From Ignavibacteriae bacterium HGW-Ignavibacteriae-3 (GTDB lineage Bacteria; Bacteroidota; Ignavibacteria; Ignavibacteriales; Melioribacteraceae), in the NCBI GenBank assembly GCA_002839795.1, contig PGYS01000018.1, positions 1-33,882 of the forward strand: a stretch of DNA of 33,882 bases. Direction: 5' to 3'. The translations under genes were made by a program, and so were the position numbers. Of this stretch, positions 6,806 to 22,513 are shown piece by piece. The stretch's first letter is position 1, and each line of letters opens with the position of its first letter. The notes under the pieces are model-generated. The model saw only the letters and a program-made list of their open reading frames with translations. It searched no databases and had not been told where the DNA came from.

Positions 6806-7536
6806 TAGAATCCCGTCCGCTGAATAAAATTTTTAATTACCGGATCACTGCTTTGCATAATCTGCGCGGGGGTACCCGTGTAATATATTTCCCCTTCGTG
6901 CATCATGGCTATTTTATCGGCAGTATTTTTTACACTGAACATATCATGTGTAACAATTATCGATGTTACATTAAGTTTTTCATTAAGTGATTTTATCAGG
7001 TCGTCAATTGCATCAGACATTACAGGATCGAGTCCTGTGGTTGGCTCATCATATAGAATATATTCCGGATTCGTAACAAGGGCTCTGGCTAGTGCTACAC
7101 GTTTTTTCATTCCGCCGGAAAGCTCGGATGGTTTTAGATTTTGAATACCGGGTAGTCCAACCAGTTCGAGTTTCTCGGCAACAATCCCATTGATTTCATC
7201 TTGAGGAAGTCTGTTTTCACTTTCAATTAATGCCAGAGAAACATTTTCCTCCACAGTCATTGAGTCAAACAGAGCGGCGCCCTGAAAAAGAAAACCAAAC
7301 TTTCTTCTGACTTCATAGAGAACCTTGCGCTCCATTTGCGTAATAGATTTGCCATGGAATCTGATTTCTCCCTCGTCAGGAAAAAGCAATCCGACAATAT
7401 GTTTCAAAAGCACACTCTTCCCGCACCCGCTTCTTCCGATTATCGCAAGCGATTCCCCCTCGTTTATAATAAGATTAATTCCCCGCAGGACCTTATTACT
7501 GCCAAAACTCTTGTGAAGATTTACTATTTCTATCAT
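6805..7536 (-). CDS. MlaF-type ABC transporter ATP-binding protein
   Basis: This 243-residue ABC ATPase has Walker A GRSGCGKS (34-41), a Q-loop in FLFQGAALFDSMTVEENV (about 82-99), signature LSGGMKKR (139-146) and Walker B ILYDEP (160-165). The GALFDSMTV-type stretch after the Q-loop is characteristic of the MlaF/Ttg2A branch, which powers phospholipid or lipid transport between membranes with an MlaE permease and MCE-domain proteins. No permease or MCE gene lies beside it; the next gene upstream is a cytochrome. The gene is coupled to radA through a TAATG overlap. The partner proteins must be encoded elsewhere. Confidence 0.88.
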   Translation of the reverse strand: MIEIVNLHKSFGSNKVLRGINLIINEGESLAIIGRSGCGKSVLLKHIVGLLFPDEGEIRFHGKSITQMERKVLYEVRRKFGFLFQGAALFDSMTVEENVSLALIESENRLPQDEINGIVAEKLELVGLPGIQNLKPSELSGGMKKRVALARALVTNPEYILYDEPTTGLDPVMSDAIDDLIKSLNEKLNVTSIIVTHDMFSVKNTADKIAMMHEGEIYYTGTPAQIMQSSDPVIKNFIQRTGF

Positions 7537-7676: not shown

Positions 7677-9185
7677 TTATGGATTTAAACCCGTATGGCA
7701 ATCTGAGCAATTCATTTCTTTCCAGGCATCTCCCGAATCTTTATCAGGATGCTTGAATACCAGGAACGAATTTATTGATGAAACTTCCAGATTAGCAGGA
7801 GGTCCCTGAGCATTGATATAATGACATTGATTGCAGTCCTTTTTTATCAATCGTCCTTTATCCGTTGAATGATTATCAGTATGACACCGGAAACATCCCA
7901 GGAATTCAAAATGACCAATGTTATTGGGATAAACGTCCCATCTCACTTTCATTTCCGGGAAAATATTTTTCTTAAATTCATCCTGAATTCCTTTAACCGC
8001 CTGATCGATAATATTCTTTTTCTTGGAATATATTTCAGGATAATTCTCCTTGTAATATGTATTTATACCGTCTCTTATGGCAATCATTGCCGTATCAGTA
8101 GTTGAATATTTCTTGCCAACGAGTTCCAATGCCTGGGCTTTTACCCACGGCAGATCTTTTGGAATAGTACCGGACGCGAGCGCCGTATTTATGAAAAAGG
8201 ATGGCGGCTGATAATTATGCGAAGGTCGATTGTGGCAGTCCATACAATCCATTGTTCTTGTCATCATTGTATCGAGAGATTTTTTGTCAACACTTTCATT
8301 AATATCCTGATAAATCTGGATCTCCCCGGTTTTAAGATTGGTATATCTGACCCACGGAATTTTTTCGCGTTTTTTATCTGTTGATTTATATTCAATCTTG
8401 ATATCGGGATTAATATGCCAGTGAATTCCCTCGGTTGTTCCAAATGCGCTTATCAAAGATCCTATCTTCATGGTGAGCGATATGTCCCATTCGGAATTTT
8501 TTTCATCCGTTAGATAGTGTCTTTGAGTGACAATATTTCTTGAGTAAAATTTTTGAGGCCAGTGACACTGCTCGCATGTTTCGCGGGCAGGACGCAAATT
8601 GGATATCGGTGTTTCGATTGGTCTAGGAACAGTTCCCAGTGTTACGGCATAGACCTGATATAAGCCTGAAAGTTTTGATCTGACATACCAGTCAGCTCCT
8701 TCGCCCACATGGCAGGCAACGCAGGCAACTTTAGCATGCGGAGAATTCTGATAGGCTATGTATTCGGGCGCCATAACACTATGGCATAATTTCCCGCAAA
8801 ATTCCACCGATTCTGTGTAATGAAATGCTTCATAGCTTCCGAAAGCAGTTAAAAAAAGGAAAATTGTAGTCCCGATCGAAAAAATGTAGAATGCATGTCT
8901 GTGGCGCAAATCATTAAGATTGACATGCGGCCACTCTCTTGGCGGAAGAATGTGATGTTTTTTATCGCGCTTTACCTTCAGAAACATTCCGATGGGAATC
9001 ATAACCAGGCCGGCAACTAAAAATCCGGGCAGAATAATATATACAACGAGTCCAAGGTATGTTCCGCCCCCTGACGAAAATGTAATAACAAATAAAAAGA
9101 TAATCATGAAAAGACTGATCAGCGCAATAGTAGCGCCGATAAGAGAAATCCAGTTTTGTGAAGAATGTGGTAATTTCAGCTTCAT
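7677..9185 (-). CDS. NapC/NirT-like membrane-anchored heptaheme cytochrome c
   Basis: A 502-residue protein with three predicted N-terminal membrane helices (about 12-36, 44-70, 98-118) followed by a long periplasmic region. Canonical CXXCH sites are at C155, C204, C314, C431, C451 and C493. A seventh site reads CGKLCH (130-135), a CX3CH spacing at the position of the first NapC/NirT-type heme and followed by SVMAPE. NapC/NirT proteins take electrons from the quinol pool and hand them to periplasmic reductases; this one is much longer than a tetraheme NapC. It is the last gene before the terminator at 7626-7653. It is 148 bases downstream of the nonaheme gene, with a GAAGGA ribosome-binding site, so it may also have its own promoter. 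The electron acceptor is not encoded in the window. Confidence 0.88.
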   Translation of the reverse strand: MKLKLPHSSQNWISLIGATIALISLFMIIFLFVITFSSGGGTYLGLVVYIILPGFLVAGLVMIPIGMFLKVKRDKKHHILPPREWPHVNLNDLRHRHAFYIFSIGTTIFLFLTAFGSYEAFHYTESVEFCGKLCHSVMAPEYIAYQNSPHAKVACVACHVGEGADWYVRSKLSGLYQVYAVTLGTVPRPIETPISNLRPARETCEQCHWPQKFYSRNIVTQRHYLTDEKNSEWDISLTMKIGSLISAFGTTEGIHWHINPDIKIEYKSTDKKREKIPWVRYTNLKTGEIQIYQDINESVDKKSLDTMMTRTMDCMDCHNRPSHNYQPPSFFINTALASGTIPKDLPWVKAQALELVGKKYSTTDTAMIAIRDGINTYYKENYPEIYSKKKNIIDQAVKGIQDEFKKNIFPEMKVRWDVYPNNIGHFEFLGCFRCHTDNHSTDKGRLIKKDCNQCHYINAQGPPANLEVSSINSFLVFKHPDKDSGDAWKEMNCSDCHTGLNP

Positions 9186-9333
9186 ATTTTTCCTTCAGAA
9201 TTGCTTATTAATATCTGGGAAGCAAAATACACTTTTTTTTAATTAGCGGGGTGCCCTTCGGCAGAGAGGACTATAAAGCCAAATTAAATATTTGGAAAAA
9301 TAGTCCACTTTACTTCACTCCAACGGTATATTA

Positions 9334-10608
9334 TTATGACCTTTTCTTTTCGCTATCTTTTATCTTAAAATACAGAGCAACAATAAAGACCAAGAATATA
9401 AGTGTGGCCAGGGCAAATCCGTTTCGTCTTGTATAATACTCATCTATTTCTATTTGCGCCAAGGCAGAAGCTTTTTCCGAAAATTCCACACCCTTAACGG
9501 TTTTTTCGCTTACCCTTGAAGAATCGAAAGTATGGACCAACGTTCGGGATTGTATTAAAGCCTGTTTGGCATCCTGAAGCTGGAATCCTATTTCAATATC
9601 ATTCATTCCTTTCTGTCTTACTTCTAAGTACTTAGCATTCGCTTCATCGAATTTATTTTTTAAGTGAATTAAAGATGAATATATTTTTTGCGAAACGGCA
9701 TATCCGCTGTCTCCGGTGGTATGACACTCAATACATGTAGATTCTTTTCCTATTCCGATCATTTCATCGTTTGGTTTTTGAACGCTATGATTACCGTGGC
9801 ATTGCTCGCACCCGTGAATTCCTTTTTGTTCAAATATTTTCGAAATTTTGGTTGCATTGAAATATTCGTAATTGGTTACATGACATGTTCCGCATACATG
9901 CGAAATGGATTTTACACCGGGGGGTGTGGCACCATGATTTCCGTGGCAATCATTACAAGCGGGAGCGCTAACGTCTTTATTTTTTAACAGAGCAATACCA
10001 TGCACACTTTTTGAATATTCCTCAAGCTGGTTTGTTGGAATTTTGTAATTTTTCATGAATTCTAAATTGCCGTGGCATTTATTACATGTATTCGGCACAT
10101 TTAACGCGTACACAGATGATCGGGGATCTTTCGCCGGCAGGATTGAATGCGCTGAATGACAGCTGGCGCATTCCGCTACATTTTGGTCTCCTGCCAATAA
10201 TTTCTTGCCATGTGCACTCGTATAATATTGCTCCACCTGATCAGTAGCTATTCTGGGTTGATATACCCTCATTATGTTTATATTCGAATGACATTTTCCG
10301 CAGAATTTTGGAATATCCTTTCGTTTAGGAACACCGACATATCCCTTCTTTGGACTCATTGCAATTTCCTGATCATCACTACTCGGATCGCCGCCATGAC
10401 AGGAAGAACAACTCAGAGCTGCATGCCGGTGAACATCACTTTCCAAAAAATCAGCCGGCAATAATTCAATTTCTTTATGGCATTTATAACATTGGTCTTC
10501 TTCAGAATTCCTATTTCCGGTAGCAGCCGTCTTTTGTGCGTTCACCGAACTTAGGAGGAAGAAAAACGGGAATGCATATATCGATAAGTTTATAAATATT
10601 TTTTTCAT
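9334..10608 (-). CDS. Nonaheme periplasmic cytochrome c with C-terminal membrane anchor
   Basis: From the ATG at 10608 the product is 424 residues and begins with a good signal peptide (about 1-24, ending VNAQ). An in-frame start further upstream would add 32 residues inside the cytochrome b gene and bury the signal peptide, so I reject it. Nine CXXCH motifs are visible, at C40, C67, C103, C147, C175, C218, C239, C267 and C292. After the heme region comes a helical stretch (about 300-395) and a membrane helix (397-414) with a basic tail, giving a periplasmic heme domain tethered at its C-terminus. It begins 11 bases after the cytochrome b stop, where bc complexes would place cytochrome c1 or an electron-accepting cytochrome. 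I infer that it receives electrons from the Rieske/cytochrome b module. Confidence 0.9.
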   Translation of the reverse strand: MKKIFINLSIYAFPFFFLLSSVNAQKTAATGNRNSEEDQCYKCHKEIELLPADFLESDVHRHAALSCSSCHGGDPSSDDQEIAMSPKKGYVGVPKRKDIPKFCGKCHSNINIMRVYQPRIATDQVEQYYTSAHGKKLLAGDQNVAECASCHSAHSILPAKDPRSSVYALNVPNTCNKCHGNLEFMKNYKIPTNQLEEYSKSVHGIALLKNKDVSAPACNDCHGNHGATPPGVKSISHVCGTCHVTNYEYFNATKISKIFEQKGIHGCEQCHGNHSVQKPNDEMIGIGKESTCIECHTTGDSGYAVSQKIYSSLIHLKNKFDEANAKYLEVRQKGMNDIEIGFQLQDAKQALIQSRTLVHTFDSSRVSEKTVKGVEFSEKASALAQIEIDEYYTRRNGFALATLIFLVFIVALYFKIKDSEKKRS

Positions 10609-10619
10609 TTTGTTGTTCC

Positions 10620-11702
10620 CTAAATTAAGTAGCCGACAACTGTCATTATCACGATGAACGCCACCACAATTATTCCGATTAAGGTTAAGGGTTGAATTTT
10701 CCAATTAGGTTTGTTTTTAATCTTTATATAGGGAATTATCATCCAGAAGAAACCTGCCACACCGAAGAACAGAACTCCCACCAGCTCTCCTTCCAGAAAT
10801 AATATATGAGCAGGCAAAAATTTAAGGGATTGGAACATGAACATAAAATACCATTCCGGTTTGATGCCTGCGGGTGCAGACGCAAATGCTTCCGCCTTGT
10901 TGCCCAGCTCCCACGGAAAATAAAGAGACAAGAAAATTAATAGATTAAAAACTACAATCCATAAAAGAAGATCTTTCAACGCAAAATCCGGGAAAAATGG
11001 GATATATTTTTTCTTCTCTTCTGGCAAATTCTTGAAGTGATCCGGTTCATGCATTCCCTGCTGCTGAATAAACAATAAATGCAGACCAAGAAATACAGTA
11101 AAAATTGCCGGAAGAATTGCCACGTGAATTCCAAAAAATCTTGAAAGAGTTGCCCCGGTTACATCTTCGCCCCCTCTCAAAAATGTTTTCAGCGGTTCGC
11201 CGATAATTGGCACGACTCCAACAATGTCTGTTCCTACTTTTGTAGCGAAGAAAGCAAGCTCATTCCACGGGAGAAGATAACCGCTGAATCCAAATGCGAG
11301 AGTAAAAACCAAAATAATAAAACCGGTTACCCACGTTAACTCTCTGGGTTTTTCATATGCTTTGGAAAAGAAGACGCTGAACATATGAACGAACGCAAAG
11401 AACACTAACAGATTAGCGGACCAGCTATGGACATTTCTTATCAACCATCCGAATCTAACTTCAGTGATAATAAACCGGACACTCTCATATGCGCTGTCTT
11501 CTCCCGGTCTGTAATATAAAAGAAGAAGTATTCCAGTGAACAACTGAACTAAAAAGAGAAAGAGTGTCACTCCTCCCATATAGTACCATAATGAATGTTT
11601 ATGTGCCGGCACTTTCTTGTGCTGAAGCAGATTACGAATAGGCGAGAGATCATACCGTTCATCTATCCAAGCTATAAACTTACTTCCAGTATTTTTGATC
11701 AT
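10620..11702 (-). CDS. Cytochrome b of a bc-type quinol oxidoreductase (fused b6 + subunit IV form)
   Basis: A 360-residue integral membrane protein with about seven helices, equal to cytochrome b6 (four) plus subunit IV (three) in one chain. The b-heme ligands appear to be H92/H106 and H193/H208; the 14/15 spacing is b6-like. The quinol-site PEWY motif is intact at 282-285. The b6 cysteine that binds heme ci lies in a FYCLGG context; here the equivalent reads WYYMGG (39-44), so a covalent ci heme is not expected. It oxidises quinol, probably menaquinol, at the periplasmic face together with the Rieske protein encoded two bases upstream. No cytochrome c1 gene follows; a nonaheme cytochrome takes that place. 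Confidence 0.95.
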   Translation of the reverse strand: MIKNTGSKFIAWIDERYDLSPIRNLLQHKKVPAHKHSLWYYMGGVTLFLFLVQLFTGILLLLYYRPGEDSAYESVRFIITEVRFGWLIRNVHSWSANLLVFFAFVHMFSVFFSKAYEKPRELTWVTGFIILVFTLAFGFSGYLLPWNELAFFATKVGTDIVGVVPIIGEPLKTFLRGGEDVTGATLSRFFGIHVAILPAIFTVFLGLHLLFIQQQGMHEPDHFKNLPEEKKKYIPFFPDFALKDLLLWIVVFNLLIFLSLYFPWELGNKAEAFASAPAGIKPEWYFMFMFQSLKFLPAHILFLEGELVGVLFFGVAGFFWMIIPYIKIKNKPNWKIQPLTLIGIIVVAFIVIMTVVGYLI

Positions 11703-11704
11703 AA

Positions 11705-12136
11705 TTAACCCTGTTTAGTAATTACAATTTCATCTTGAATTACTTTTACATCAAACTGTTCAAGGGGTCTTGGTGGCGGGCCAGAAACATTGCGTCCGTT
11801 AAGGTCGTAGATCCCATTGTGACAAGCGCATAAAATTTGCTTCGTATCAGTCTTATACTGAACAATACAATCGAGATGTGTACAGCCGGCAGATAATGCT
11901 TTTAACTGATTATCTTCTGTTTTTATGAGAATTACCGGCTCTCTCCCGAACTTAATTATTTTAGCGCTGTTTGTCGGGAGTTCTGAACTTAAACCCGCTT
12001 TGACAGAATTAACTTTTGGTTCGGCGCTTTTAGGCGGAATGAGAAACGAGAATACCGGATATAAAACGGCAACAATCCCGCCTATTCCCCCAACCCCCAG
12101 CAATGTGTTCAGAAATTTTCTTCTATCTAATTTCAT
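11705..12136 (-). CDS. Rieske [2Fe-2S] iron-sulfur protein
   Basis: A 143-residue Rieske protein with an N-terminal twin-arginine motif (RRKFLN, 5-10) and an adjacent membrane segment (about 12-33) that likely serves as an uncleaved anchor. Cluster ligands are C85/H87 (CTHLDC) and C103/H106 (CACHNG); C90 and C105 sit where the stabilising disulfide of bc-type Rieske proteins forms. The serine normally following CXCHG that raises potential is replaced by glycine or asparagine, while the nearby tyrosine (Y110) is kept, which suggests a lower redox potential. The protein shuttles electrons from the cytochrome b quinol site to a c-type heme. It precedes cytochrome b by two bases and follows the NrfD-type gene by 36. 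Confidence 0.95.
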   Translation of the reverse strand: MKLDRRKFLNTLLGVGGIGGIVAVLYPVFSFLIPPKSAEPKVNSVKAGLSSELPTNSAKIIKFGREPVILIKTEDNQLKALSAGCTHLDCIVQYKTDTKQILCACHNGIYDLNGRNVSGPPPRPLEQFDVKVIQDEIVITKQG

Positions 12137-12172
12137 GTTTAGTTCTAGTTTAATGAATAATCAGTTGATTAA

Positions 12173-13366
12173 TTATGGATTTCTGGCTTCCTCCCACGGC
12201 GGAAGAATTTTTGTCAGAAGATACAGTAACACAAATGGCAGACAAAAAATAACAACGGAGGCAAAAAATCCTTCCAAACCGAAAAACGTGATTTTATAAA
12301 CCGTCAAGCCTCTAAAACTTTTCGAGAACAATTGTCCACCGATCACAATGTTCCAGCGGGTAGAAAAAATCCCCACTTGGACAAGTATTGCCGAAATAAA
12401 ATAAACCATTTTTTTAAGATCTGATGGAGCTTTAAATATTTTAATCAGCGAAATCATTGCAAGGGGTATTAACATACCCATAAATAATTGTATTACAATT
12501 AAACTGATAAACAATTTATTGGAAACAAGATATGCTAAAATATTAATAGATTCCTCAGATTCATAAATACGGTGTATAAAATCTAACGCCTCAAGCGAGA
12601 AGTCTATTATCATTGCATAAAACAAGTAGCTCGCTAATTTGTCCAGACAGACAATATCCAACTCTTTGCCGCGGATAGGAGTGATTATCATGTACAAAAT
12701 GAGGACCATCGCTATACCGGAGACAATTGCAGAGAAGAGAAAAACAATCGGCATAAGAACACTAGACCACCATGGATTTGCCTTTATAGATCCGAATATG
12801 AAACCAACATAACCGTGCAGAAGGAACGCTGAAGGAATTCCAATAATCGTGATTATCTTAACCCATTTTTTATCAAAATGAATCGCTTTTTCAGAAATAT
12901 CCTTTGAAAAAAGGGAAATAATTTTATGAATCCATTTTTTGATGCCGGTTTCTTTCTGCGCCCACAGAATAATATCTCTTCTGTACTCAAACCAAATTTC
13001 CAGGCACAATACCGCCATCAGATACCAAGCATAAACAAATCCGAACATGGCCATTGCCGATGCACTGTTCGGCGTAATCAGTATTTCATATGATTTTTCC
13101 GGATGCCCCAAGTGACCAAGCAATGGAAGGGGCGCGACTATTAAGAACGCCATGGCCGTCAGCATTGCAAGGCGGTATGTCGGCTGAAGTTCTTTTACGT
13201 TAAATACCTTAACGAGAGATGCCAAGATGAAAGCTCCTGCGACAAGTCCTGTTAGATAAGGATATAATACTATGAGGATTCCCCAATGGAGTTCAATTTC
13301 ATTTGGAAAAATATATCCCCATACTTCCTTGAGTATCGGTGTCAGGTGTTGAATCAGCTCTTCCAA
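12173..13366 (-). CDS. NrfD/PsrC-superfamily quinol-interacting membrane subunit
   Basis: A 397-residue protein with about ten membrane helices and the general pattern of the larger NrfD-like branch (HybB/DsrP/HmcC type). Supporting features are the GHLGHPE loop around residues 83-89 and a RWNIVIGGQ segment near the C-terminus, a stretch that recurs in these proteins. Members exchange electrons between membrane quinone and a periplasmic ferredoxin-like subunit, which is encoded immediately upstream with a two-base gap. With the octaheme cytochrome and the [4Fe-4S] protein it forms a three-gene module resembling Nrf-, Qrc- and Cbc-type quinone oxidoreductases. The direction of electron flow cannot be told from sequence. 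Confidence 0.92.
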   Translation of the reverse strand: MEELIQHLTPILKEVWGYIFPNEIELHWGILIVLYPYLTGLVAGAFILASLVKVFNVKELQPTYRLAMLTAMAFLIVAPLPLLGHLGHPEKSYEILITPNSASAMAMFGFVYAWYLMAVLCLEIWFEYRRDIILWAQKETGIKKWIHKIISLFSKDISEKAIHFDKKWVKIITIIGIPSAFLLHGYVGFIFGSIKANPWWSSVLMPIVFLFSAIVSGIAMVLILYMIITPIRGKELDIVCLDKLASYLFYAMIIDFSLEALDFIHRIYESEESINILAYLVSNKLFISLIVIQLFMGMLIPLAMISLIKIFKAPSDLKKMVYFISAILVQVGIFSTRWNIVIGGQLFSKSFRGLTVYKITFFGLEGFFASVVIFCLPFVLLYLLTKILPPWEEARNP

Positions 13367-13368
13367 TT

Positions 13369-14169
13369 CTATTTTACCTCCACGTCTAAATTAGCGTAAT
13401 AGACTTTAGGTTCTGTATTGAGAGAAGGTTTAAGAATTCCGATTTTATTCATTCTTAAAAAGCGAACTAAAGGACTGGATTTTTTAGTAAGTTCACCAAA
13501 TACTCTTGCCTGGGTAGGACACACTTCAACACATGCAGGAACTTTATCCTGAACAATTCTATGATAACAGAAAGTACATTTCTCCGCCGTATGGGTTTCC
13601 GGGTGCAAGAACCGTGCGCCATAAGGACATGCCTGGATGCAATATCTGCAACCGACACAATAATCTGAATCAACAAGAATTACTCCGTCTTCACCGATAA
13701 AAGTGGCGCCTACCGGACAGACTTGAACGCACGGGGGGTTGTCACAGTGGTTGCAAATTTTTGGTACAAAAAAACTTCTTAGCAACTTTCGGTTCGAATT
13801 CGACAGATTACTGAACCCATCTATTGAACCATTAGGACTCTCAACCTGTACTTCGCCATTTTCATAGATTCGGTAGCGTTCAACCCAGGTTCTAAAGAAA
13901 AAGGGTACTTTAGGAACATTGTTTTCATTTTTACAGGCAACTGCGCATCTTCCGCATCCTATACATTTATTAATGTCTATGCCCATTCCCCATTTGTGGT
14001 TGCTCGGTACGTATCCATTTTTAAGCATCCATTTTTTTACAGTCTTTAATTTGTCGGTTGCTCCCAGCAGTCCAAATGCAATAGGCGCTAATGCGAGAAT
14101 GGCAATTTTTTTAAGAAAAGTTCTTCTCTCGACTTTCTTATCTATCACTTTTAAATTGCTTTCCATCAT
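13369..14169 (-). CDS. Periplasmic 4x[4Fe-4S] ferredoxin-like subunit with Tat signal
   Basis: The chosen ATG at 14169 overlaps the octaheme gene stop as ATGA and gives 266 residues; an in-frame ATG ten codons upstream would extend further into the cytochrome gene. A second ATG follows at 14166. The N-terminus has a twin-arginine motif (RRTFLKK, 15-21) and a hydrophobic segment, so export is in folded form. Sixteen cysteines form four clusters: C69/72/75/79, C139/142/147/151, C171/174/177/181 and C198/201/213/217. This is the DmsB/NrfC/HybA-type electron-transfer subunit. It should relay electrons between the NrfD-type membrane protein and the octaheme cytochrome. Confidence 0.93.
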   Translation of the reverse strand: MMESNLKVIDKKVERRTFLKKIAILALAPIAFGLLGATDKLKTVKKWMLKNGYVPSNHKWGMGIDINKCIGCGRCAVACKNENNVPKVPFFFRTWVERYRIYENGEVQVESPNGSIDGFSNLSNSNRKLLRSFFVPKICNHCDNPPCVQVCPVGATFIGEDGVILVDSDYCVGCRYCIQACPYGARFLHPETHTAEKCTFCYHRIVQDKVPACVEVCPTQARVFGELTKKSSPLVRFLRMNKIGILKPSLNTEPKVYYANLDVEVK

Positions 14170-14915
14170 TGGGCCTCGGGTAAATGTGGATAATGACATT
14201 GCCAGCAGACATATCTTGGTTCATGTGTAACCATATTTATCCTCGGAATAAATTTATCCGCTTTGGCACTTTGTGAATGGCACTGACCGCAAAATTCTCT
14301 ATCTACCGGTTTAGTAGGTCTGAATTCTCTCGGATGCAGTCTGTGTTTTTCGGTAGTAACATGACATTTTGTACAGGGAATATCCATATGGCTCGACACA
14401 GACTTCACACTCGATATTTCTGCATGACATGCAGAGCATTCCTTTGGTGCTTGTGGGGGGGTCGGGTTGTGCGGATTATGGCATGTTACACAAATTTTTC
14501 TCGGGTTATGAGCTTCAGAAACGATCTGCGGATAGCCCGTAGGCCGCGATGTATTATATTCGTGGCAGACAACGCAAAAAGTTCTGTCCCGTGGAATTTC
14601 CGGTTTAAACTGATCCGGATCGTTGGTATGATTAATAGACGGTCCATGACAAACTTCGCAAGAAAGGTTTTTATGATAATTCGCATTTTTAAGTTTCCAA
14701 AGATCATCATGACAATCAGCGCAAGCCTCCTGTCCAGCATATTTCAACTCCCGATCAGCATTCTCTTGAATTGAACCCGCACGGTAATGACCAACCAGTC
14801 CAAAATCTTTCGGTGTAAGAAGTGAGTTTGCTACAATAAAAACAGCTACAATGACAATTAAAAGCACTGACAAACGCTTAACTTGTTCTGGGATTTTATG
14901 CCATATTTTTTTCAT
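14166..14915 (-). CDS. Membrane-anchored octaheme cytochrome c
   Basis: A 249-residue protein with one N-terminal membrane helix (about 15-33) and eight CXXCH motifs, at C65, C86, C114, C142, C160, C181, C209 and C237, in a compact periplasmic domain. The TPKDFGLVGHYRAG segment just after the helix is a stretch I associate with cytochromes that accompany NrfD/ferredoxin modules. It heads the seven-gene respiratory cluster and overlaps the following ferredoxin gene by four bases. The inferred role is electron carrier between the iron-sulfur subunit and periplasmic acceptors. No strong ribosome-binding site is visible at its start; DUF2339 ends 49 bases upstream. Confidence 0.92.
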   Translation of the reverse strand: MKKIWHKIPEQVKRLSVLLIVIVAVFIVANSLLTPKDFGLVGHYRAGSIQENADRELKYAGQEACADCHDDLWKLKNANYHKNLSCEVCHGPSINHTNDPDQFKPEIPRDRTFCVVCHEYNTSRPTGYPQIVSEAHNPRKICVTCHNPHNPTPPQAPKECSACHAEISSVKSVSSHMDIPCTKCHVTTEKHRLHPREFRPTKPVDREFCGQCHSQSAKADKFIPRINMVTHEPRYVCWQCHYPHLPEAQ

Positions 14916-19990: not shown

Positions 19991-21301
19991 CTAATTATCT
20001 TTTATCTTCATTACTTCTTTATCAAAAGGCCTGATCAAAAATAAGATCGCAGCAATTCTGCCGGCGAGATAAGCCGTTACTGCCGCGACCATTCCAATGA
20101 ACGAAAAGAAATTTATAGTTATTAATAGAGTGAGGGTGATACCTGAAACTTCTATTAGTGTGGCATAAGTTATCGGTTCTGTTTTTCTTGAATGAACGAG
20201 TATCGCTCTTTGAAAACTTATCCACACTGTAGCCGCAGGAAAGATAGTATAAAGCAGCAGGGGAAATTTGGAAAATTCGGTCAGCGTTGGCGATAATCCC
20301 GCTACCTGTCTGAACCAGATTTCGGAAAGGGGTGTAAAAGAAATTAGACCCAGACTTGCAACGACTCCGACGGCAATTATTGCGGCAAAATTTTTCAGCT
20401 TAATATAATTATTTCGATTGCGCATGAGTGCTATCACCACTTCCTGATAGGATAACCCGAAACTCCTGAAGAAAAACACAAGCGAATTCAGAACAGGCAA
20501 TACAGCCAGCGATTCAAGCGGCATTCTGCTCTGACCCATAAAAAATGTTACTACAGGATGAACGCCGAGTGAAATAAATGAAGTAAGAGCAAGCGGATAG
20601 TAAAATTGAATAATGCTGCGATAAGAAAGTTTATCAGAATCTATCAATTCATTTTTTGCCTTTACTTCTTTTACGAATTTATTGGCCATAATCCTGCTTG
20701 CCAGCGCCTCCATAATAACACCTCCGGAAAGCGCCAACGCACCAACAATAACTCCATCCAGATCAAAAAATGTGACGGAAACAACCGCCGTCAGAAACAT
20801 TGAAGCCATACGGATAATTGTCCCGTAAGCAACCCGGCGAGTGGCATTGCAGCTGATCATAATTCCCTGGTAAAATCTTCTAAAACCTATGGCCGCGGGC
20901 CAGGGCATCAGAATTATTACTGCCTTGTGAGTAAGGAAAGCTACCTGAGCCGGAAGATTCATAAGATCAACAGTTAAAAAATAAAATACCGAAGGAATTA
21001 TCAGAATCAGAATAGAACCGGTAATAATAAAATTTACGGAATAGACAAAATATTGTAGTTTATTAAATGAAAACTTATCATGAACAAGTGCGATCGATGC
21101 GCTCATCATCATGATAACGGGTGATTCGATAATCAAAGCCAGAGCGAAAGCAACCCCGTAAGCGGCAAGATTATATTCAGGATTCGGCATTCTTGCAATT
21201 AAAGCTGTAAGAAACGGGCCTTCAACGGACATCATAAGCCAAGTTGCCGAAAGGGGCAGCCAGAATTTCAGGATTTTTTTATACGTTAGTTTTTCGTTCA
21301 C
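19991..21301 (-). CDS. MOP-superfamily (MATE/ANKH-like) membrane transporter
   Basis: A 436-residue protein with about 12 predicted membrane helices in two similar halves. The halves begin with ILKFWLPLSATW (about residues 10-21) and SIIQFYYPLALTS, a pattern shared by MATE and related multidrug/oligosaccharidyl-lipid/polysaccharide exporters. The first-half motif LAAYGVAFAL and the second-half PLALTS also resemble the ANKH branch of this superfamily, known in animals for exporting small polyanions, but this is a weak impression. The start overlaps the TrpF-like stop by ATGA. It is the last gene of a three-gene overlapping set with an acetyltransferase and a TrpF-like protein. The substrate is unknown. 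Confidence 0.75.
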   Translation of the reverse strand: MNEKLTYKKILKFWLPLSATWLMMSVEGPFLTALIARMPNPEYNLAAYGVAFALALIIESPVIMMMSASIALVHDKFSFNKLQYFVYSVNFIITGSILILIIPSVFYFLTVDLMNLPAQVAFLTHKAVIILMPWPAAIGFRRFYQGIMISCNATRRVAYGTIIRMASMFLTAVVSVTFFDLDGVIVGALALSGGVIMEALASRIMANKFVKEVKAKNELIDSDKLSYRSIIQFYYPLALTSFISLGVHPVVTFFMGQSRMPLESLAVLPVLNSLVFFFRSFGLSYQEVVIALMRNRNNYIKLKNFAAIIAVGVVASLGLISFTPLSEIWFRQVAGLSPTLTEFSKFPLLLYTIFPAATVWISFQRAILVHSRKTEPITYATLIEVSGITLTLLITINFFSFIGMVAAVTAYLAGRIAAILFLIRPFDKEVMKIKDN

Positions 21302-21954
21302 TTGAGGCTGTCAGAAACATTCGCAAAAAATAATTTTAGTTTGTTCCCGTCTAATTTTCCATCGGTTCTTACTCCAGAGCAAATATCAACACCGTAAGGT
21401 TTAACCTGCCTGATCGCGTCAGAAACATTTTGAGGATTTAATCCCCCCGCAAGAAAAACTGGACATTTTACAGAATCAACTATTTTTTTGCTGACGCTCC
21501 AATCATGGGTTCTCCCCGTTCCCCCTAATTCCTTAACGGCCAGTTTCTGATTGCCTGAATCGAGAAGAATGGCATCCACAAACCCGGAGATTTCTTCAGC
21601 TTCTCGAAGGGATTCATCATCGGTGACATGCACCACCTGAACAATTTTAATTCCCGGCATGGCTTTTTTCAGTTCAAGGTAAGATCCCCCAATCAGTTTA
21701 TCGCAGATTTGAATTGTATTTGTCCTGCACCTTTTATGCTGATCAATTATCTCGCTCACACTCTGCCTGCTGGTGAGTAAAAACGTTGATATTGCGGGGG
21801 GCATTGCATCAGCGATTTCCGCTATTAAAATTTCAGGAATTACGCCCGGTCCGCTTGGCATTTCCGAAACCAATCCGATGGCCGAGGCGCCGTTTTTAAC
21901 TGCAAGCTTCGCCTCGGCATGAGATGAGATGCAGCATATTTTAACTCTTATCAT
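21298..21954 (-). CDS. Divergent phosphoribosylanthranilate isomerase (TrpF)-like protein
   Basis: A 218-residue TIM-barrel protein of TrpF length. It keeps the catalytic cysteine in VKICC (C7), the catalytic aspartate in AILLDSG (D132), the GGTG loop (144-147) and the AGGLNP phosphate-binding loop (169-174), followed by GVDICSGVR. The region equivalent to SKRYISPE of Thermotoga TrpF, whose arginine binds the anthranilate carboxylate, reads SGPGVIPE here, so that arginine is absent. The usual VQLHG is replaced by IQICDK. There are no other trp genes nearby. It may therefore act on a different ketose or phosphoribosyl substrate. The gene overlaps both neighbours (14 bases with the acetyltransferase, 4 with the transporter). 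Confidence 0.8.
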   Translation of the reverse strand: MIRVKICCISSHAEAKLAVKNGASAIGLVSEMPSGPGVIPEILIAEIADAMPPAISTFLLTSRQSVSEIIDQHKRCRTNTIQICDKLIGGSYLELKKAMPGIKIVQVVHVTDDESLREAEEISGFVDAILLDSGNQKLAVKELGGTGRTHDWSVSKKIVDSVKCPVFLAGGLNPQNVSDAIRQVKPYGVDICSGVRTDGKLDGNKLKLFFANVSDSLK

Positions 21955-22513
21955 TCTGATACTCGCTTTTAAGAATAGAATACATTTTCATGGAACGGTA
22001 TCTTTCCTTTACAAAAACTTTCTGCCGCAAAAGTCCTTCAAATTTCATCCCGCACTTTTCCATTACTCTCCATGAACCGATATTTTCCTCTTCACAATGC
22101 GCCTCCACACGATTCAATTGCAATTCCTCAAAGCAAAATCTGATAACAGACCGTAAGACTTCTGTAAGTATTCCCTTATTCCAATACTTTTTGGAAAGAA
22201 CATAACCGATATCCGCGCAGTTATTTTCTCCTTTCCAGTCCCGAACATCGATACTGCCGATGAGTTTTTTCTCATTTTTAATTTCAATTCCGAAAATTAT
22301 CCAACTATCCTTTTCAAATTTCTCTTTTGCAAATTTTATAAAACTTAAAGAGTCCTGAATTGTTTGATGAGAATACCACGGAAGAAACTCCGAGACCTCC
22401 GGCAAATGCGCGTATTCGAATATATCGGCAGCATCATCAGATGTAATTTTTCGGAGAATTAACCGCTCAGTCTCCAATTTGGGAATCTCCAGAAGGCCTA
22501 TCGGATTATTCAT
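21941..22513 (-). CDS. RimJ/RimL-like GNAT acetyltransferase
   Basis: A 190-residue GNAT protein of the RimJ/RimL type. It has the N-terminal LETERLILRKIT entry, an acetyl-CoA loop in SKKYWNKGILTEVL, and the characteristic C-terminal block with NRVEAHCEEENIGSWRVMEKCGM. Family members acetylate protein N-termini, or small molecules and antibiotics in some cases. Its end overlaps the start of the TrpF-like gene by 14 bases, so it leads a coupled three-gene set. It is divergent from the Trm112-like gene across 97 bases. The acceptor is unknown. Confidence 0.88.
   Translation of the reverse strand: MNNPIGLLEIPKLETERLILRKITSDDAADIFEYAHLPEVSEFLPWYSHQTIQDSLSFIKFAKEKFEKDSWIIFGIEIKNEKKLIGSIDVRDWKGENNCADIGYVLSKKYWNKGILTEVLRSVIRFCFEELQLNRVEAHCEEENIGSWRVMEKCGMKFEGLLRQKVFVKERYRSMKMYSILKSEYQNDKS

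Follow-up and report, generated by a model that had tools for sequence, protein, structure and literature searches.

The closest described relative of the protein studied here is phosphoribosylanthranilate isomerase (PRAI or TrpF; EC 5.3.1.24; PF00697), represented by the Thermotoga maritima structures 1NSJ and 1LBM. The same type of reaction is carried out on the same kind of barrel by the HisA/PriA phosphoribosyl isomerases (PF00977). In the literature on the T. maritima enzyme (PMC2667513), Cys7 and Asp126 are given as the catalytic residues, His83 is placed among the active-site residues, and Arg36 is described as forming a salt bridge with the carboxylate of a product analogue. The subfamily to which the present protein belongs, hereafter clade A, has in common with TrpF the fold, both catalytic residues and the GGTG, AGGLNP and DxxSG motifs, but differs from it in residues of the active site and is retained where the tryptophan pathway is absent. 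No paper on this subfamily was recognised among the open-licence PMC articles searched.

The whole stretch of DNA analysed (33,882 nucleotides, hereafter the window) contains at 21298-21954, on the minus strand, an ATG-initiated open reading frame encoding a TrpF-like protein of 218 amino acids. Its single Pfam match was PRAI PF00697 (88.2 bits against a curated cut-off of 22.7, profile positions 1-192 of 193), which places it over its full length in the TrpF family in the broad sense. In NCBIfam, 13 TrpF-type equivalog models matched the protein, but all scored below their cut-offs, the highest score being 124 bits where 215 were required. HisA/PriA PF00977 did not match, PF00697 being the only Pfam family found at an E-value of 0.001. 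Strong PF00977 matches are present elsewhere in the same genome, which therefore probably does not depend on this protein for HisA function. Elsewhere in the window, genes at 7677-14915 for a multihaem cytochrome c, a cytochrome b, a Rieske protein, an NrfD-like protein and 4Fe-4S proteins make up a cluster for an electron-transfer complex.

An AlphaFold2 model built with a 24-row alignment adopts a (beta-alpha)8 barrel (pLDDT 90.1, pTM 0.88), with a loop at residues 136-148 whose pLDDT falls below 50. Its best fold match was T. maritima TrpF 1NSJ (Z 27.1, rmsd 2.2 Å, 204 residues, 30% identity). TrpF entries headed the ranking with Z scores from 27.1 to 21.5, the next family reaching at most 20.0; PriA and HisA-like entries scored about 18, and thiamine phosphate synthase, hexulose-phosphate synthase and ribulose-phosphate epimerase appeared lower down. 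A phage origin of clade A was also considered and rejected: nine phage records matched, at 27-32% identity, and did not fall near clade A. The best match in a viral fold library had 14% identity and was uninformative.

Alignment with T. maritima TrpF confirmed most of what the earlier note had claimed from the sequence. The catalytic pair is kept, as Cys7 (codon at 21934..21936, minus strand as for all codons given here), which is followed by the Cys8 of clade A, and as Asp132 (21559..21561), the counterpart of Asp126. The loop after strand 2, MPSGPG (residues 32-37, 21844..21861), lacks the arginine and has Gly37 at the place of Arg36. The segment QLHG is replaced by QICD (residues 82-85, 21700..21711), so that His83 becomes Cys84 and Gly84 becomes Asp85, in agreement with the claim that VQLHG is altered to IQICDK. 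The statement that the phosphate loops are conserved held in part: Gly158, Asp178 and Ser181-Gly182 are kept as Gly170, Asp190 and Ser193-Gly194, but Ser180 is replaced by Cys192 and Glu184 by Arg196 (21367..21369), an arginine of clade A beside the phosphate loop. In addition, Phe139 corresponds to His150.

Relatives were gathered from four sources: 38 loci of named genomes, in 35 of which the clade-A gene is complete or almost so; 35 of 296 genomes from the phylum of the window, its own genome included; 18 of 199 genomes from the phylum of G007 (Acidobacteriaceae), of which two (G426 and G450) fell outside clade A and one further gene is a fragment; and plasmids. Residues were compared in an alignment of 121 sequences, comprising 83 clade-A sequences of at least 180 residues after identical copies had been merged; the canonical L039 served as a comparison row, and the fragments L040, L041 and L128 were excluded from residue counts and tree. 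In the tree, whose bootstrap is not fully settled and in which several comparison rows are long, clade A forms one side of a branch with 100/100 support and a stem of 1.57 changes per column, and true TrpF, including the Thermotoga enzyme, forms a separate branch (99/95).

Cys7, Cys8, Asp132, Ser133, His109, His150 and the glycine at the Arg36 position are invariant in all 83 clade-A sequences. Because the same letters recur in 83 distinct relatives, these residues of the window protein are neither chance nor a sequencing slip. Relative to T. maritima TrpF, clade A shows Arg36 to Gly, with no arginine or lysine within three alignment columns in any of the 83 rows; His83 to Val (49/83) or Cys (34/83); Gly8 to Cys; Glu184 to Arg; and Lys190 to Leu. 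The last two replacements, together with Cys192, occur in all 81 rows with a residue there (two of the 83 are gapped), and Asp85 is present in 81 of 83. Among the 30 rows classed as canonical from a KxCG motif, Arg36 is kept in 28 and a glutamate stands at the Glu184 position in 26; the two rows without Arg36 (L129 and L130) were placed outside canonical TrpF in the tree.

The window's own genome contains three PF00697 genes: the clade-A gene, a third gene without the catalytic cysteine, and a canonical trpF with the KICG and SRR motifs that adjoins trpC, which is the second TrpF whose presence the earlier note had proposed to check. As read from translations, its trp cluster also includes trpD and a gene for DAHP synthase. 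No trp gene was found near 21298-21954 among the 30 window ORFs scanned with Pfam, as had been claimed; the sole chorismate enzyme of the window, at 95-1072 on the minus strand, lies 20 kb away and scores above the cut-off of aminodeoxychorismate synthase (folate).

The same separation from tryptophan synthesis was found across other genomes. In the window's phylum, canonical TrpF was present in 28 of 34 other clade-A genomes (at least 97% completeness), and the six without it (G092, G134, G213, G265, G288 and G308) all lack both trpC (PF00218) and trpA (PF00290), whereas both were detected in five of five controls picked from the 28. One of the six, G213, carries a clade-B gene (see below) besides clade A, and another, G265, a degenerate TrpF homologue (L192, frame from approximately position 6941) that has Ser for Cys7, has lost GGTG and seems to be a relic of the lost trp pathway. 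In the phylum of G007, 13 clade-A genomes were compared: all eight with trpC hold another PRAI gene, which in G489 is divergent (29.6 bits) and lies beside trpC, and all five without trpC have clade A alone. Pooling both phyla, each of the 13 genomes with trpC among the 24 other clade-A genomes scanned for trpC and PRAI carries a second PRAI gene, and each of the 11 without trpC keeps clade A and has no intact canonical TrpF. Among the named metagenome-assembled genomes (MAGs), 28 of 35 clade-A carriers show another canonical-type PRAI gene, with the motif read in 25 of the 28, and five of those without a second one also lack trpC (G001, G005, G014, G030 and G032). The exceptions are two lower-grade Verrucomicrobia MAGs, G020 and G022, which have trpC and clade A but in which canonical TrpF was not found. 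Since 490 bases separate trpC from a contig end in G022, and the trpC of G020 is on a 5.3-kb contig, their canonical trpF was likely lost with a missing piece of the assembly. The earlier note had named, as one half of what would count against its reading, the absence of a second trpF; such an absence alongside an intact pathway occurs in none of the 24 scanned genomes, G020 and G022 standing apart. Its view that this is not the tryptophan enzyme is borne out by the canonical trpF beside trpC in the same genome and by the persistence of clade A where trpC and trpA are missing. It is therefore well supported that clade A is not the TrpF of its host genomes and is independent of the trp pathway.

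Clade A is a distinct and probably horizontally spread subfamily of the TrpF family. According to record titles, its hosts include Ignavibacteria, other Bacteroidota, Acidobacteriota, Verrucomicrobiota and one betaproteobacterial MAG, and plasmid-borne members occur in Acaryochloris marina (61% identity) and in Sphingomonas aliaeris and Sphingobium cloacae (47%). The distribution is patchy within the window's phylum, where 28 of 139 genera have it. Between the 26 genomes with both genes, clade-A proteins had a median identity of 59.6%, compared with 36.5% for canonical TrpF, and clade A was the more similar of the two in 317 of 325 genome pairs; among close relatives of the window, the two identities are approximately equal (e.g., 71 and 69%). 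This greater likeness of clade A between genomes is best explained by transfer between phyla, to which strong constraint may add.

In the window, the gene is embedded between two neighbours on the same strand. Upstream, a GNAT acetyltransferase gene (21941..22513; PF13302, 120 bits) overlaps its start by 14 bases; downstream, a gene at 19991..21301, encoding a hydrophobic protein of 436 amino acids without any Pfam or NCBIfam match, overlaps its stop by 4 bases. Homologues of the acetyltransferase and of the membrane protein were found in 11 and 6 further clade-A loci, respectively, of the 93 searched, one strain being counted twice in each case, and the arrangement is restricted to relatives of the window. 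A comparison of 74 clade-A loci, in which three strains or plasmid copies are duplicated and one gene is a fragment, revealed neighbours conserved only inside lineages; two Bacteroidota, for instance, have guaA and an LptE-like gene in common. In one branch of Acidobacteriaceae, clade A is surrounded by genes for a DeoC-type aldolase, a large aldehyde dehydrogenase and a nucleoside hydrolase, and a PfkB kinase gene occurs in three loci, in one of which (L010) it lies approximately 5.5 kb downstream and is cut by the end of the stretch. When 52 of 55 same-strand neighbours were scanned together, no Pfam family recurred in more than two proteins, and ten selected neighbours, mostly tightly packed, comprised eight unrelated families and two proteins without a match. 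Since the neighbours change from lineage to lineage, they indicate no pathway for clade A, and the neighbourhood was dropped as a guide to function.

Other groups of PRAI genes outside tryptophan synthesis were also detected. The third PRAI paralogue of the window's genome (L003, 1459-2133; C205:18007-18606) belongs to what we call clade B, with further rows L131, L132, L133, L177, L194 and L199. Clade B shares the THD(W/L) segment with clade A, keeping THDW, and the two were grouped against canonical TrpF in the tree (96/77). Unlike clade A, with which identity is 23-32%, it retains QLHG and replaces the catalytic cysteine by alanine (QIAG, QVAG or QAAG; five of five rows). A clade-B homologue is located on the pigment plasmid pET44827 of Corynebacterium aurimucosum, in the pigment cluster, together with an NRPS-like gene, upp (uracil phosphoribosyltransferase) and a pseudouridine-5'-phosphate glycosidase gene. 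A third set, clade C, comprises PRAI-like proteins of Halostella and of plasmids from Sinorhizobium, Ensifer, Shinella and Aminobacter (L046, 4995-5663; L145, L146, L147 and L148). The Halostella protein is 29-33% identical to clade A and has the THDW and AGGL segments, but lacks the cysteine (QIYSL); like clade A, it is encoded outside trp clusters. The neighbours of clade-C genes are genes for sugars, nucleosides or purines. In Halostella they encode a nucleoside hydrolase, a PnrA-like binding protein and an ADP-ribosylglycohydrolase, and in the rhizobia a sugar ABC transporter, a PfkB-type kinase, an aminotransferase and an RpiR regulator; in Aminobacter, the clade-C gene shares a plasmid cluster with purH and with genes resembling purC and beta-RFA-P synthase. 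Finally, two genomes (G382 and G394) contain three PRAI genes each, namely a trpC-linked copy, clade A and an extra KICG-type gene (L203 and L204) with Ser at the place of Arg36.

Judged by its fold, the Cys7/Asp132 pair and the putative phosphate site, the protein is most likely what the earlier note suggested, an Amadori-type isomerase with a new substrate. More generally, we think it probable, with considerable room for doubt, that clade A has left tryptophan synthesis and isomerises a 5-phosphoribosyl compound other than phosphoribosylanthranilate; catalysis, phosphate binding and substrate class are what we infer for it. The substrate would be either a free pentose 5-phosphate or an N-riboside 5'-phosphate, the latter converted in an Amadori-type reaction. 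Its 5-phosphoribosyl group would sit in the barrel, and the AGGL and CSGV loops, which follow strands 7 and 8, would hold the phosphate. In TrpF the aspartate acts as acid and the cysteine as base, and in clade A Asp132 would be the general acid and Cys7 the general base. Because the carboxylate-binding Arg36 and also His83 are gone in every member, anthranilate is improbable as the attached group, so that the group on the sugar is probably a different one; the MPSGPG loop would suit a group that is small or uncharged, or no group at all. Cys8, His109, His150, Cys192 and Arg196 are candidates for the residues behind the changed specificity, and our guess is that the enzyme may help to salvage or repair ribosyl compounds.

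The Acidobacteriaceae neighbourhood, with its nucleoside hydrolase, DeoC-type aldolase, aldehyde dehydrogenase and PfkB kinase (three loci), would fit a catabolic isomerase of the pentose-phosphate or nucleoside type, performing an aldose-ketose step on a ribose-type 5-phosphate after nucleoside hydrolase and PfkB, with no amine involved. The non-trp PRAI genes of Halostella, rhizobia and Corynebacterium likewise adjoin nucleoside or sugar genes, and 13 of 35 clade-A genomes encode a nucleoside hydrolase, against 30 of 261 others (Fisher p = 3e-4, kinship ignored). However, the cluster represents a single lineage, tblastn detected PfkB in 4 and the hydrolase in 5 of 93 loci, and 22 of the 35 genomes, including that of the window, have no nucleoside hydrolase, which also led us to reject this enzyme as an obligate partner of clade A. 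We regard such a catabolic role as rather unlikely, while keeping it in mind.

The same fold and catalytic pair could also belong to a back-up second TrpF that still isomerises phosphoribosylanthranilate, in which Arg196 or another residue might bind the carboxylate in place of Arg36; G020 and G022, with trpC and no canonical TrpF found, would be in line with this. Nevertheless, clade A is kept in the 11 genomes without trpC, is never the sole PRAI gene in the 13 trpC genomes of the two scanned sets, and has the Arg36 and His83 positions altered in 83 of 83 sequences, making this explanation very improbable. Barrels related to TrpF catalyse many reactions, and some of them were seen lower in the fold search; the new invariants Cys8, His109, His150, Cys192 and Arg196 could mark a different chemistry, which Cys7 and Asp132 could serve, in a sugar-phosphate-binding or otherwise non-isomerase protein (lyase, cyclase or sensor) on a TrpF scaffold. 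Against this stands the invariance of both TrpF catalytic residues in clade A, whereas clade B has alanine for the cysteine, and we consider a non-isomerase quite improbable.

The clade-A gene is named phosphoribosylanthranilate isomerase in all three plasmid records examined, so that a tryptophan gene may be attributed to some organisms that lack the pathway. Cultured carriers include Fibrella forsythiae, Terrimonas ginsenosidimutans, Sphingobium cloacae and Acaryochloris marina; as clade A is small, strongly conserved and present in cultured strains, its substrate can be sought directly. As a tentative proposal, to which we give somewhat less than an even chance, clade A may constitute an undescribed one-function family, a free-standing and mobile phosphoribosyl isomerase that would act in several phyla on a common damaged or salvaged ribosyl phosphate (for example, an N-riboside 5'-phosphate whose aglycone is small). 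With clades B and C counted in as well, the TrpF family would then be a broader collection of ribosyl-phosphate isomerases, and tryptophan synthesis would occupy one of its branches. Clade A represents a natural counterpart to laboratory work on substrate change in TrpF and HisA barrels.
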